A DNA stretch of 64,000 bases from an uncultured Opitutales bacterium (GTDB lineage Bacteria; Verrucomicrobiota; Verrucomicrobiia; Opitutales; Seribacteraceae): positions 1 to 64,000 of the forward strand of contig CALSMY010000003.1 of NCBI GenBank assembly GCA_943787575.1, given 5' to 3'. The notes under the pieces were generated by a model that worked only from the letters and a program-made list of their open reading frames with translations, was not told where the DNA came from and did no database searches. A program made the translations under genes and the position numbers. Below, piece by piece: positions 6,429 to 13,956 of this stretch. The first letter of the stretch is position 1; every line of letters begins with the position of its first letter.

Positions 6429-8552
6429 ATGAAATTTTATACTGTTCCCATTTTATTATCCATACCCTTTGCATTTGCACTGGGTCAAAAAGACAAACAG
6501 CAAGCCGAGCAGCTCGATGCCCTGGTTGTTGAATCAAGCCCGCTTGATACCAATCAATGAAACCACTCAATCAGTGGGTATTCTTACTGGTGATGAACTA
6601 GATAAAGCCAGAAGCAAAACCATAGCTGAAACTTTGTCTGATCTTCCTGGAGTTAATCAAACTCAATTTGGTCCATCCGCTAACCGCCCCATCATTCGCG
6701 GTCAAGATAAGTTTAGAATTAAGGTTGTTCAAAATGGATCTGATTCATTTGATGTTTCCGGCCAGTCTGAAGACCATGCAGTACCTATAGACCCATTACT
6801 TGTAGACAGAATCGAAATACTACGTGGTTCTGCTGCACTATTACATGGAGGAAGTGCAATCGGTGGTGTTGTAAATGTAATTGATCGTAGTATTCCAACT
6901 GCTATTCCATCTGGAATTAGTGGGTCTTTACTATCAAGTTACAGCAGCGTAGATGATGGTTTTAATTCCGGTATTACAGCTTTCGCAGGTTCTGATAATT
7001 TTAACTTTCAAATCAATGGTTTTATTCGGGACTTTAAAGACTATGATACCCCAAGTTTTTACAAGGAGGATCATCATTCTGGAGAATTGGAGGGACCTTT
7101 CAATGTTGTTTCAAATAGCCATGGTGAGAGCCAGTCAATTGGGTTTGGCGGGGCGTATAAATTGGATTCAGGCTATGCAGGGTTCAGTTACTCAAACTAT
7201 AATAACGACTATGGAGTACCCGGAGAACATGCCGAAAGTGATACTCTTATCGAAATGGAAAGAGATCGTTTTGAATTCCGAACTGAAATTGAGATTGCTG
7301 ATTCTGAATGGCTCCGAGCCGTCGAGCTAAACCTTGGTTATGCAGATTACAAGCACAGTGAGAGTGGATATGAAACTGAAGACAATATTACAGAATGGCA
7401 CACTCATTCGACTTACTTAAAGAGGGGTTTGATGTAAAAATTGCATTTGACCATGAATTTGGTGACTTTAGCGGAGTCTTTGGAGTTCACGGTATTTTTG
7501 ATGAATTCAAAATTGACGGCGAAGAAAGTATTCTTGGTGGTCTCAGTAAGGATGATAACAATAATTCAGTTCCTCAAAACGATGCAATTAGTTCGGAGGA
7601 TTCTTCAAGGATAGCCCTTTTCTTAATCGAGCAATACTCCTTAAGTGATCAAACCACATTGAATGGCGGAATTCGTTGGGAAAGTTTTGCTCGTGACTAT
7701 GAAGGTACTGCAGATCGGGACGATTCATTATTTAGTGCAAGTGGTGGAGTTTCACACGAACTCAATGAAATTTGGAACATCAGTGGTAACTTGAGTTACT
7801 CTGAGCGTGCTCCAGATACAGCTGAATTGTATTCTGACGGAGGGCATCATGCGACCGAGTCCTATGATGTTGGTACTTCAACTTTAGGTACTGAGTCTGC
7901 CGTTGGTATTGAAGTTATTCTTCGTAAGAAAATTGGCAATGTTACAGGTCAATTCTCAGCATTTCATACCGAGTATAAAAATTACATATTCCTGGAAGAT
8001 ACAGAGCAGGTTCGGGATGCCACAGGCCATTTGCCTAACCGCCCTGATAATGAATTTTCTTCAGGAGCAGAGGGTCTTGAAGAAAAAAAATATGAGTCTG
8101 CAGATGCTGAGTTCCAAGGATTTGAAGTTGAAGTTGATTGGTTAGCTCTGGAGAACCCAGGGTGGGACTTGCTGCTTTCGGCATATGGTGACATGGTGCG
8201 CGGTAAAAATAAGTCCGAGGGTGGAAATCTACCCAGAATTCCAGCAGCTAGAATTGGATTTGGTTTTGAAGTTCAGCAAGAGAAACTTGATTTCGGTATG
8301 AAGCTTATTCGTTCCCTAAAGCAGGATAAAGTTGCCGTTCACGAAGACCACAGCGAAGAAGCAACGGATGCATATTCTATCTTAAGTGCATTCGCGTCTT
8401 ATGATATTAATGTTGGTGACAATGTCGGTACGCTTTTCCTCCGTGGAAACAATCTTACTGACGAACTTGCATTCAACCATGCCTCTGTACTTAAGAATCA
8501 TGCACCCTCAGCTGGTCGAAGTGTAGAAGTTGGTCTCAAGTTCGATTTCTAG
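6429..8552 (+). pseudogene. TonB-dependent outer-membrane receptor, possibly for zinc or copper, frameshifted twice
   Basis: The gene starts at ATG 6429 with a signal peptide (MKFYTVPILLSIPFAFALGQ) and enters a plug domain with landmarks TLSDLPGVNQTQFG, RPIIRGQDKFRIKV and VDRIEILRGSAALLHGGSA. A 22-stranded barrel follows, ending in a C-terminal Phe (VGLKFDF), as outer-membrane proteins do. The first frame closes at TGA 6558-6560, so a shift near 6550 is needed to join the signal peptide to the plug. A second shift lies in 7395-7437 at the AAAGAGGGG run. Loop sequences rich in His and acidic residues (YKEDHHSGELEGP, NSHGESQS, GVPGEHAES) recall ZnuD-type zinc receptors. A metal substrate is inferred, not shown. 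Confidence 0.8.
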
Positions 8553-9542: not shown

Positions 9543-9668
9543 TTGTGTATAACTGGGGTTCTGTAAGAGTTTGTCAATGCTCGCAATGAGATGTGCGGAA
9601 TTCGCAGATTTAGGTTGCCGAATATAGGATTGGTTTAGCATTCTCAAGAAACCCTTCCGTCCAACATT

Positions 9669-10919
9669 ATGACTGATCCAGCCGTTTCTAATCATTTAAG
9701 AAAAAGTCGACTGACCATCCTGCTTATTTTGGGTGGGGTTCTAATGATCCCAGCTTTTTTTGCCTGGATCGTAAATGTGGAGATAGGTATGCGGACCATC
9801 TTCCCTGGATGGAAACTATTGGAGAGTGTACTCCCGAGTTTTATCTATGACTCGTTCCTCATCTTTGCGGATGATCTTAGTACGATCAGTACTTTTATTC
9901 CTCTTCTGCTTATTCTCTACCCACTGGTTATGAGCTGGAAGGTTTGGAAACTTAAAGCAGAGCAGGAGGAGAGTTTATCCAAGCTGGAACACGATCCTTA
10001 TCCCGACAATTTTCCTTTCTTTTTAGTGATGCTTGGATTGGTGGGCACTCTTTATGGATTGCTGATTGGGTTGGATGTGAGCGGGGTGAAGTCGATTGGC
10101 GATGATACGGATTCGCCGGATCGTATTAAAGATGCATTGGATCAATTGCTTGGCGGAACCTCCACCGCATTGCTTAGCTCTCTGGTTGGCTTATTGGGCG
10201 CCTTTTTAGCTGCCAAGCCCATGACTGCAGTTTTTCACTGGGCCGCCTGTCTGCCTAAGGTTGAAAGCGTCGGCCTTGGAGAGACGCTCGGGGGGTTGAT
10301 CGAGGACATGAAAACCCTCAGTGATTCGAGCCGTGAATTTTCTGAGAGATTAAATTCTACCCATGTGCAGGAGGTCTCGACTACCTTGTCTGAAATCGGC
10401 ACAGAGATGACTGGGTTGAGGCAGGAATTAGCACATACAAACCAAATCATTGAGGGCCTGGGAGAGACTCAGAAAGCCGGGCAGAATATGCTTGGTTACC
10501 TCGGTCAATTGGGAAGGTTGGAAAATTTGGAAACCTTACTTGAGCGGATGGGTAATGCATATCTAACTGCAAGCCAATCTAACGATCGTGCAATGCAGTC
10601 GCTTCAGTCCATGGGAAGCAGGCATGCAGAAGATTCCATGAAAATGGAAGAAGCCCTTCGCACAATTGCTTCTACTTTATCGGATGTGGAAACCGCAGGA
10701 CGGGACAGTGCCGAGCAGATGCGGGAAGTGGTATCACAACTTAATGAGGCCAATGAAAGTTTGCGTTCCGGTAGAGAGCGGGCAGAAGTCCAAAGGCAGG
10801 ACACGATTGAAATCTTGCAGGCAGTTCGGCAGGATAGAAATGTAGACCGAAAAGCCTTAAGGAATGCTTTTGGACAATTTTTACAGTCCGATGACAAGCC
10901 AACCACAGATCAATCGTAA
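9669..10919 (+). CDS. MotA/TolQ/ExbB-like membrane channel protein with a long coiled-coil tail
   Basis: A 416-residue protein with four predicted membrane spans (about residues 15-36, 73-92, 115-135 and 162-182). Spans 3 and 4 resemble the proton-channel domain of MotA/TolQ/ExbB: GLVGTLYGLLIGL and then GGTSTALLSSLVGLLGAFLA, with small residues and threonines facing a presumed pore. After residue 190 comes about 225 residues of charged heptad-like helix (ESLRSGRERAEVQRQD near the end), presumably cytoplasmic. The stop TAA overlaps the ATG of the next gene. In stators of this class the four-span protein forms a pentamer around a dimer of the single-span partner, and such a partner is encoded next. 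Assignment to the superfamily is fairly firm; the biological role is unknown. Confidence 0.72.
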   Translation: MTDPAVSNHLRKSRLTILLILGGVLMIPAFFAWIVNVEIGMRTIFPGWKLLESVLPSFIYDSFLIFADDLSTISTFIPLLLILYPLVMSWKVWKLKAEQEESLSKLEHDPYPDNFPFFLVMLGLVGTLYGLLIGLDVSGVKSIGDDTDSPDRIKDALDQLLGGTSTALLSSLVGLLGAFLAAKPMTAVFHWAACLPKVESVGLGETLGGLIEDMKTLSDSSREFSERLNSTHVQEVSTTLSEIGTEMTGLRQELAHTNQIIEGLGETQKAGQNMLGYLGQLGRLENLETLLERMGNAYLTASQSNDRAMQSLQSMGSRHAEDSMKMEEALRTIASTLSDVETAGRDSAEQMREVVSQLNEANESLRSGRERAEVQRQDTIEILQAVRQDRNVDRKALRNAFGQFLQSDDKPTTDQS

Positions 10920-11695
10920 TGAGTGGTAGGGCAGGAGGTTCCTCCAATCTTCAGGGCTTGGATGATTTAATCCGAGGAAAGAAGAAAAACTCTCTTTCAC
11001 TTAGTCCAAACGATGCCCTAGTGCAGATCGCACTACCTTTGGTTCTGATCTTGGCAATCATTACCCGCTTGATGGTGATCGAGTATACGGAGGCGATGCG
11101 CAATAAGGGCCCGCGAGTTCTGGAGATGTGGAAGCAGCAACTCATTCTGCGAATGGATACCGTGATGAATAAATGGGAAAAACAGGCGGAGCTCGGTGCA
11201 TTTCCAGACTTTAGTCGTGTTCAATGGAAAGGTGCTTTTCCAGTAGATGAACGATTTAAGTCTCTTTGTGCGAGGGCTCAGGAGATGGATAACCGAAAAA
11301 ATTTGGAAGATGATATTTATAACCAAGCACTGGCTTATACTCCTCCAATTGAGGATGAGGAAAGTGCGTCCTTCTTTGTCCCGGTGTTCGATCCTGATGC
11401 CAAGTATCAGCCAAAAAACGCCGATAAAATATCCGACGAATTTGTAATTAATGAGGGGCGAAGAGCCTATGCCATGCGTCACATTGCGGACCGGGTATCG
11501 AAGTGGAAGGAGCAGGTTGAGGGTTTGCAGTGGGCCGCGGTGGCTCAGTGTGCAGATAAGATGCCATTGAATGCTCTAGGGGGATCACCTGACAAGATAT
11601 CCACACAGCTAACTAGGGTGGCCAGCGAGATGAACAAGCGTGGATATCCACTTATGAATAGCGTGGTGGAAGAGTACGGAAAACTGGACGAATGA
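10919..11695 (+). CDS. Single-span membrane protein, possible ExbD/MotB-like partner
   Basis: A 258-residue protein with a basic N-terminal tail (RGKKKNS), one membrane span at about residues 33-55, and an extracytoplasmic domain of about 200 residues that is mainly helical and charged. Asp32 sits right at the cytoplasmic entry of the span (SPNDALVQIALPLVLILAII). That is the place occupied by the essential proton-carrying Asp of MotB and ExbD. There is no OmpA-like peptidoglycan-binding domain and no ExbD fold that I can recognise. The start overlaps the upstream stop and the stop overlaps the next start (ATGA), so all three genes are translationally coupled. Confidence 0.65.
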   Translation: MSGRAGGSSNLQGLDDLIRGKKKNSLSLSPNDALVQIALPLVLILAIITRLMVIEYTEAMRNKGPRVLEMWKQQLILRMDTVMNKWEKQAELGAFPDFSRVQWKGAFPVDERFKSLCARAQEMDNRKNLEDDIYNQALAYTPPIEDEESASFFVPVFDPDAKYQPKNADKISDEFVINEGRRAYAMRHIADRVSKWKEQVEGLQWAAVAQCADKMPLNALGGSPDKISTQLTRVASEMNKRGYPLMNSVVEEYGKLDE

Positions 11696-13956
11696 AGAAT
11701 ACATTATCTAGCTTAGCTACCTGTCTGATTGTTTTCGGAGCAATAAATTTTTCCTGGGGAGCAGACCCCAAGGCCGAAGCAAAGCGCATGCTTACTTTGC
11801 GAGCGGCTGCGGAAAAAGCGCGAACTTATTTGCAAGAATCTGCGGAGGTGAATGAAAAACAAAACGATGCGGTTAGCACGATGCTTTCCAAGGAAATGCT
11901 CAAGCAGGTCGAAAAATTTCGTAGTAAAAAAGATGGGCAAAGTCCAGGTAGGGACTGGTTATCGGGTTGGAAGTTAAAGGAATTAGAGAAGTCGGTGGAT
12001 GGTGCATGGGAATGGGCGAAGGAACAAAGTCCGCTTCCGGTCAATCGGGCTGATGTAATTAAACGGGCGACCAAAAACTGGTCTAAGGATGCTCAGGCAA
12101 AGGTGGGCCAGTTTGCTGATAAAAGTATGAAGGCAGTCTATGATAAAGCACGGCGCTTGGCTGCGGATGAACAACTGAGAAGCCTGAAGCAAAAGCTCAA
12201 CTACCCAAGCAAGGATGACTTGAATAAGCGTATCTCCGGTTTGATCGGAGGAAATAAAAACAGATGGTCTCCTTTGAACTCCAAAGATTTTGGAAAGTTA
12301 GATGGCTGGTTAAAGACAGTGGTGGGAAACGCAGGGCCTGTGTTTGAGGAATTAAACAAGGAGGTTGCAAAGATGTCCTCCAACTTGCGGCTTGAGCTGG
12401 GAAACCAGTACCAGGCTCAGTACAAAAGCATTCAGCAGATGGTTGAGAAAAATGGATTTCCCAAGGAATTGATTACCAAAGAACAACTGAAGGCTCATGC
12501 ACTCAATTTACTGAAAGAAAATACTTCGGAAAACTTGGCAGCTAAACCACCAAGGTATGGGGTGTTTTCGGCGATGGAAAATCTGGTCGAAAATGCCGCT
12601 GCCCATTGGGAAGTGAAGCGTATGGAAATATTTGCCAAAGCCAGGAGTGATTGGCTGCCTATGAAAGATCAGCTGGAACAAGCTATTCGCGGAGACTTGG
12701 CTAAACATGCTCCCTTGGAGGATAGCCTGAATGTTTTAACGGAAAAATTTTTATCTCCTGCGAATGAAAAACTTGCTTCTTTGTATGGAGGAAAACAATG
12801 GGCCACTTATTTTAAAGAGGCTTTGGCTGAGCAAGATGTATTGAGAAAAAATGTGACCAACCAGTTTCGCAGTGCTCTGAAGGAAAGGATCAAGCCCATT
12901 CGGGAGAAGATTGCAGGGGAACAGTTTGCTACTCATTTTTCCATGCTTAATGAAAAGGTTTTTCCGGAGGAACCCATTATTATGTATTTTTATCAGAAGG
13001 GTAAAAAAAGCGTAACCGACTTTAATGAGCTCGCAGATGGGCTCAATTTCCCAGCACCTGAGCGACCCTCAATTATTGAGGAAACAAGGTTGCTTGCGGG
13101 GGACCGTGCGAATCGGGCAATGGTACCTGCATTGAGTTCAATGGATAAGCAGGTGGGTTTGGTGCGTGAGGTGGAAAAGAAAAAAATAGACCAGTTGAAA
13201 GTGGAGGCTGAGCAAGGGCGTCCCTTCGCCGAAATTCTCAGGGAATGGGACAAGGATTGGGGTACTCTTTGGAACGGTGCAAAGCAAAAAGTCTCTGAGA
13301 GGTGGCGGTCGAAGTTTAACCACATAGATAAGTTATTGAATAAAGGGGTCAGGCAATTCTATGATGGTATGCAACCTAGCTCGAATAGCACCCCACAAGA
13401 TACAGTTGCGGTAAAGGAGGATGAACTTGGCGAAGAACAGGAGGATACCCCTAATGAATCTGTCCCGGTCGAAAATGAACAGCCTGAGCAAGAGGATGAA
13501 AATGAAAAATCCGAGCAGGAATCTTTGCAGGGTATGTGTGAAGAACTGAAGCTCTATATTGGACTTGCAGATGGGGTCTTTGCTTTTTCTGATCTACCGG
13601 ATGGGAGGTGCAGGATGTTATTTGGTACACCGGATGGGGTGGGTGCGTTTTCTGTAAAATTTGATCCTCAACAAGTCGAAGTTGCTGCCAATCAAATATC
13701 AGGAAGTTTGAAGAAACCGCTTGGGTTAGTGCTTGATGGAAATGCCCGAATGGGCGGGAATCGTATCCTGCAATTGTTTCAAGGGGAGTATCAGGGGCCG
13801 GAAATAAAAATGCTTTTTAAGGTATCCACCCCAGCAGTTCGACACCAAATGAGCATACTGGTTCGGCAACAGGTGGAAGAGGCGATCGAGGCATGGGCGA
13901 AGAAGTCAGGTCGGAAAGCTCCTGATCTTATTTGGCAGGACGATGTGGAACTCTAA
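11692..13956 (+). CDS. Large exported helical protein, third gene of the stator-like unit
   Basis: A 754-residue protein with a cleavable signal peptide (about residues 1-23, ending NFSWG). About 540 residues of charged helical sequence follow, then a highly acidic linker near residues 570-612 (EDELGEEQEDTPNE), and a C-terminal domain of about 140 residues with beta character (GLADGVFAFSDLPDGRCRMLFG). I recognise no family, catalytic motif or peptidoglycan-binding signature. Its four-base overlap with the single-span gene suggests it is the periplasmic element on which the membrane complex acts. A short gap separates it from the convergent MFS gene. Confidence 0.7.
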   Translation: MKNTLSSLATCLIVFGAINFSWGADPKAEAKRMLTLRAAAEKARTYLQESAEVNEKQNDAVSTMLSKEMLKQVEKFRSKKDGQSPGRDWLSGWKLKELEKSVDGAWEWAKEQSPLPVNRADVIKRATKNWSKDAQAKVGQFADKSMKAVYDKARRLAADEQLRSLKQKLNYPSKDDLNKRISGLIGGNKNRWSPLNSKDFGKLDGWLKTVVGNAGPVFEELNKEVAKMSSNLRLELGNQYQAQYKSIQQMVEKNGFPKELITKEQLKAHALNLLKENTSENLAAKPPRYGVFSAMENLVENAAAHWEVKRMEIFAKARSDWLPMKDQLEQAIRGDLAKHAPLEDSLNVLTEKFLSPANEKLASLYGGKQWATYFKEALAEQDVLRKNVTNQFRSALKERIKPIREKIAGEQFATHFSMLNEKVFPEEPIIMYFYQKGKKSVTDFNELADGLNFPAPERPSIIEETRLLAGDRANRAMVPALSSMDKQVGLVREVEKKKIDQLKVEAEQGRPFAEILREWDKDWGTLWNGAKQKVSERWRSKFNHIDKLLNKGVRQFYDGMQPSSNSTPQDTVAVKEDELGEEQEDTPNESVPVENEQPEQEDENEKSEQESLQGMCEELKLYIGLADGVFAFSDLPDGRCRMLFGTPDGVGAFSVKFDPQQVEVAANQISGSLKKPLGLVLDGNARMGGNRILQLFQGEYQGPEIKMLFKVSTPAVRHQMSILVRQQVEEAIEAWAKKSGRKAPDLIWQDDVEL

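Follow-up and report, generated by a model that had tools for sequence, protein, structure and literature searches.

A co-inherited gene trio of Verrucomicrobiota with a ZorA/ExbB-like channel protein, exchanged between related species as an allelic cassette

Introduction

Ion-driven motors of the 5:2 type drive swimming and gliding, the import of nutrients, the upkeep of the outer membrane, and phage defence. Their output partners vary by system. Ion-driven pentamer-dimer motors have been described for ZorAB (PMC11890865), for MotAB, ExbBD, and GldLM (PMC9389320), and for force transducers (PMC12204202). Motors of PVC bacteria that have TolR-like proteins in pairs together with vWA transducers were described in a 2025 survey (PMC12204202). 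In this work, we analysed a window, which is the whole stretch of 64,000 nucleotides from an uncultured Opitutales bacterium, that contains a trio of overlapping genes (A, B, and C). The trio had been read in an initial annotation as resembling a proton-driven stator, with force transmission to a new type of periplasmic protein as a suggestion. No description of the trio was found in the literature searched, which covered open-access papers under a narrow range of terms.

Organisation of the three-gene unit

Gene A (9669..10919, forward strand) is an ORF for a four-span ZorA/ExbB-like channel protein of 416 amino acids. Gene B (10919..11695, forward strand) is an ORF for a single-span axle-like protein of 258 amino acids. 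Gene C (11692..13956, forward strand) is an ORF for a protein of 754 amino acids with an N-terminal signal-peptide-like segment. The overlap is TAATG at the A/B junction and ATGA at the B/C junction, and all three ORFs and both overlaps lie exactly where the initial annotation had placed them. The architecture that it gave was also recovered, which is four hydrophobic spans and a cytoplasmic coiled-coil tail of ~225 residues in A, one span with Asp32 at its entry in B, and a signal-peptide-like start and an acidic linker in C, where beta strands are found only in the last ~130 residues of a weak model. Its statement that no OmpA, TonB, TolA, or Zorya effector gene adjoins the trio was borne out as well. 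The flanks consist of isomerase, MFS, Na/H antiporter, and cNMP-binding genes.

The dN/dS values of the trio genes are 0.06-0.20 among the close relatives compared. Synonymous changes far exceed replacements, which indicates that all three are working genes, and the low dN/dS together with the gene order kept across the phylum argues against a chance arrangement. A, B, and C are a real, co-inherited unit. The genome encodes five other PF01618 proteins, one of them MotA-type, so the trio would be an extra motor.

Comparison with described motor systems

The trio resembles Zorya ZorAB (ZorA5:ZorB2) in its match to the ZorA model, its long coiled-coil tail, and its single-span partner with one conserved Asp. 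However, the OmpA-like peptidoglycan-binding domain that characterises ZorB is not recognisable in B, and the effectors that adjoin ZorAB in Zorya (ZorC/D, E, or F/G) were not recognised beside the trio. The trio also adds the signal-peptide-bearing C, and its chromosomal locus is fixed in the genus.

The ExbBD/TolQR systems with TonB/TolA share with the trio the TM3-TM4 core motif (GLxGT, ALxTT/SS), the Asp at the entry of the axle helix, and a three-part layout of inner membrane plus periplasm. Unlike ExbBD/TolQR, A has four spans and a long tail, and B is modelled as helical. Unlike TonB/TolA, C appears to be a soluble protein that has a signal peptide and no membrane anchor.

The TolQ-like/paired TolR-like/vWA transducers of PVC bacteria are, like the trio, uncharacterised Verrucomicrobia 5:2-type motor genes with a periplasmic partner, but the trio has a single B and no TPR gene, and its C lacks a membrane anchor (PMC12204202). 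GldLM and MotAB share the general motor plan. GldLM is a further likeness in that GldM swaps peptidoglycan binding for a long periplasmic shaft and GldL has a cytoplasmic tail (PMC9389320). The single MotA sequence used aligns poorly with A, and no flagellar or T9SS genes were seen near the trio.

Gene A is a relative of ZorA

The initial annotation had assigned a MotA/TolQ/ExbB-like core to A and named PF01618 as the profile that should match. The MotA/ExbB-superfamily core is supported by the ZorA HMMs and by the profile-profile comparison of TM3-TM4, and the assignment is refined here in that A is closest to ZorA, not to MotA or ExbB. The direct match to PF01618 did not stand, since this profile gave no match to A of the window at E<=1 and was absent for 14 A members among the first 25 of 56 matched families listed. 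The PADLOC ZorA model matched A of the window (E 7e-9) and 14/14 A members (best E 4e-10). NF033917 (ZorA) matched A with E 6e-7 and 29 bits, which is below its curated cut-off of 500. The ZorA-model scores are far under the curated cut-offs, and A is accordingly a relative of ZorA and not a ZorA. The ZorA models matched A over TM2-TM4 plus part of the tail. The best PDB match of A is also ZorA (8qyh), and it is weak (E 0.003).

The 14-member A alignment was then used as the query for Hhalign against small seed alignments. The values obtained were 96% against ZorA-like proteins of the same class, 85-94% against two further motor groups, 78% against ExbB (moderate), and 22% against TolQ (low). 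For seven sets of membrane or coiled-coil proteins that served as controls, the values were 0.1-5%, and the similarity of the TM3-TM4 core of A exceeds these controls. TM3-TM4 is also the region aligned with the ZorA-like proteins and ExbB. The long ExbB group gave 1-3% with no alignment with A. MotA was rejected as a relative of A after a poor alignment (under 2%), where the template was a single MotA sequence.

The TM3 motif GLxGTLYGL and the TM4 motif GTxTALLSSLxGLxGAF are kept across the main clade. Thr127, Thr166, and Ser170 are invariant in all A homologues, including those of the divergent clade that are only 16-23% identical to A. Thr127 (GLxGT) and Ser170/171 align with the GT and TT positions of ExbB, and A has the Thr/Ser ring in TM3 and TM4 that is expected of a 5:2 motor.

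Gene B carries a conserved aspartate

The motif SPND-[AV]-LVQI-[AS]-LP of B, in which D is Asp32, is kept across the phylum, and its version in G641 is NANDALVQI. The Asn31-Asp32 codons (11009..11014, forward strand) include that of the Asp which may carry ions where the span enters the membrane. Asp32 was found in 15/15 full-length B copies of the main clade (7 from the genus and 8 distant). In the main clade, B has the single N-terminal span with an invariant Asp at the membrane entry that is seen in 5:2 motors, which supports the earlier view of B as an axle-like protein. The divergent sister clade (G531, G754, and G604) has Ala or Gly at the Asp32 column and acidic residues 3-4 positions earlier. 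The conservation of Asp32, on which the initial annotation had relied, is consequently upheld among the main-clade homologues and does not extend to that column in the sister clade.

B belongs to no family in Pfam, NCBIfam, or PADLOC. None of its 13 members matched an ExbD/TolR family (Pfam and NCBIfam), no match to the MotB, OmpA, or PADLOC ZorB models was obtained in Pfam, NCBIfam, and PADLOC, and no relative in the PDB was found by sequence. The periplasmic part of ~200 residues is all-helical in the single-chain AlphaFold model, which is of low-to-moderate confidence (pLDDT 67). The fold search with this model returned generic helical bundles only (Z up to 5.6) and no Foldseek E below 0.001.

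Gene C encodes a putative exported protein modelled as mostly helical

C also belongs to no family in Pfam, NCBIfam, or PADLOC. It consists of a signal-peptide-like segment, a long helical body, an acidic linker, and a C-terminal beta-alpha domain. The signal-peptide-like N-terminus is present in C and in most C homologues with a plausible start. No outer-membrane or peptidoglycan-binding domain was recognised in C, no TonB/TolA domain was detected, and no vWA match was obtained. The single-chain AlphaFold model is weak (pLDDT 53) and mostly helical, with the beta-alpha domain at residues 613-754.

Residues 613-754 show a weak structural similarity to RNase H/actin-like folds (Argonaute PIWI, MreB, and exopolyphosphatase) with Z up to 7.7. 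This resemblance is taken as a lead only because the model is of low confidence and Z is under the level that excludes chance. A match of C to apolipoprotein A-IV (E 0.0045) was put down to amphipathic-helix composition.

Distribution of the trio in Verrucomicrobiota

The trio occupies one fixed locus in all eight genomes of the genus of the window, where the G005 copy is truncated by the end of its contig. It was not found elsewhere in the order (273 genomes, B profile) or elsewhere in the class (286 genomes, A profile), where the weak A-profile matches are other ZorA-like operons. These searches had suggested that the trio is genus-specific, and this was overturned by the phylum-wide search. 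Among the 388 Verrucomicrobiota genomes sampled, A, B, and C each gave strong matches in an identical set of eight genomes from other classes, apart from the genome of the window itself.

The three genes are adjacent in the order A-B-C in 7/8 of these distant genomes and usually overlap. In G641, the remaining genome, C is on a contig separate from that of A-B, and A-B lies away from the contig end. The expectation in the initial annotation that homologues of the three genes would be found together is thus confirmed by the phylum genomes and the genus locus. Three more genomes have a divergent A-B-C set in which the genes are adjacent. The distribution of the trio across Verrucomicrobiota is patchy, a point absent from the initial annotation. 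No neighbour gene common to all distant trios was seen in the stretches listed.

In the divergent sets of L130 (7383-11373), L131 (7871-12068), and L132 (5046-9118), B lacks Asp at the conserved column and has Asp-Glu a few residues before it, and A retains the Thr positions in the sets that were tested. In two genomes that belong to one genus, the gene immediately upstream of the trio is phospholipase-D-like (L124, 12394-14376; L129, 3865-5895).

Exchange of the trio between related species

The trio is an allelic cassette that is exchanged between related species as one block, which the initial annotation had not described. A, B, and C of the window are 44-68% identical to the versions in G004 and G005, whereas the flank proteins are 81-100% identical to those of G004 downstream and mostly 87-99% identical to those of G005. 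The opposite pattern was found against G007, where A, B, and C are 85-91% identical and the flank proteins mostly 65-93%. Nucleotide identity to G004 is ~90% up to about 9.58 kb, 43-73% from there to about 13.95 kb, and 83-97% beyond. The drop and the recovery coincide with the limits of the trio and place the swapped cassette at approximately 9580..13950 (no strand assigned).

Synonymous divergence between the window and G004 is saturated in the trio, and dS is 0.065 in the downstream antiporter. Against G007, the trio has the lower dS (0.6-0.8, compared with 1.8-2.05 for the flanks). In tree topology tests, the trio data reject the flank grouping (AU p 8e-49) and the flank data reject the trio grouping (AU p 9e-34). 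The trio allele of the window matches G003 and G007, which is the version of a distant species. The identity, dS, and tree conflict together indicate that at least two old allele classes have been recombining at the fixed locus with the three genes moving together. The exchange of the cassette as a block fits a physically interacting set.

The TonB-dependent receptor of the window (6469-8552) is broken into two ORFs that overlap and differ in frame, with the junction at about 7395-7437. The receptor allele matches G002 (80-82%) and not G004 or G003 (54-59%), and its exchange is independent of that of the trio.

Proposed mechanism and alternative explanations

We consider it fairly probable that A and B form an ion-driven 5:2 motor like ZorAB and ExbBD that acts on a dedicated periplasmic protein, C, in an envelope role under exchange pressure. 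Of the force-transmitting motor that the initial annotation had proposed, the A core, the axle-like B, and the three-gene unit are supported here. The data show the gene unit, the homology of A, the invariant Asp and Thr/Ser positions, the co-inheritance, and the allele exchange. The A-B pair should be a motor by homology, and its stoichiometry, ion flow, B-C contact, force, and biological output are inferred. Several observations weigh against this reading, namely the missing PF01618 match, the moderate to low ExbB and TolQ values, the failure of the long ExbB group and of MotA to align, the poor single-chain models of B and C, the Ala or Gly at the Asp32 column in the sister clade, and the separate contigs of A-B and C in G641.

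In the proposed mechanism, a pentamer of A would surround a dimer of B in the inner membrane, as in ZorAB/MotAB/ExbBD-type motors. Asp32 of B would carry ions past the Thr/Ser ring of TM3 and TM4 of A. The helical periplasmic domain of B may replace the usual peptidoglycan-binding domain and engage C. The lack of a recognised peptidoglycan-binding domain in B makes C the natural periplasmic target of the motor. The exported C could then relay motion or a conformational signal into the periplasm, in the direction of the cell wall or the outer membrane. The long cytoplasmic tail of A may bind a partner in the cytosol or serve as an anchor for the pentamer. That divergent alleles are exchanged suggests an output under variable pressure, which would touch something that changes under selection, for example surface structures, phages, bacteriocins, or a substrate that varies.

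The main rival is a Zorya-like anti-phage system in which envelope damage would be sensed via B and C and signalled through the tail of A to an effector encoded elsewhere. ZorA proteins are the closest sequence relatives of A with the tail included, the end of the tail is kept in the genus, and the patchy distribution and exchanged alleles are as in defence genes. This explanation is nevertheless unlikely given that ZorC/D/E/F/G were not recognised beside the trio, B lacks the peptidoglycan-binding domain that Zorya requires (PMC11890865), all genomes of the genus have the trio at a fixed locus and not sporadically, and searches of viral, phage, and plasmid sequences returned no copy of B.

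The trio could also be an ion channel under regulation, or a sensor of envelope tension, that produces no force, with C as a gating or plug protein. Conserved channel residues need not imply rotation, and a mostly helical C with no recognised outer-membrane or peptidoglycan-binding domain would suit such a role, but we regard it as quite unlikely because the characterised relatives that share the core have been described as ion-driven motors (PMC12204202, PMC9389320). A further possibility is that the trio is a Ton-like energiser, with C as the periplasmic link, of the TonB-dependent receptor close by (6.5-8.5 kb). In its favour, the receptor is found near the trio in the genus and also undergoes allele swaps. 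We regard it as very improbable, since the receptor matches G002 at 80% while the trio matches G003/G007 so that the alleles travel separately, C has no detected TonB-type domain, the receptor is split in the window, and none was recognised beside the distant trios among the neighbours scanned.

Returning to the motor acting on C, the chances are about even that the trio represents an undescribed class of Verrucomicrobiota envelope motor, in which a helical axle that does not bind peptidoglycan would drive a soluble periplasmic protein and old divergent three-gene alleles are traded at a fixed locus. Two partner proteins of no known family are inherited with the motor core, and an adaptive role in the envelope is suggested by how sharply the allele exchange is marked. 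Three genes and one candidate Asp are a small, defined set for asking if a soluble periplasmic protein could be coupled to ion flow.

Other motor-like operons in the class

Another motor-like operon was observed in L067 (5546-11621), L070 (2315-8254), and L072 (2536-8448). It encodes a ZorA-like protein and two different single-span proteins, one with Asp and one with 'VEPFLSIMAIVLKL', plus a further single-span protein and a protein of ~650 residues, which in L067 consists of HEAT repeats. In L069 (4853-8196), L071 (4190-7759), and L073 (5906-8918), a ZorA/ExbB-like gene is followed by genes for two different single-span proteins. These sets resemble the PVC motors with paired TolR-like proteins (PMC12204202).
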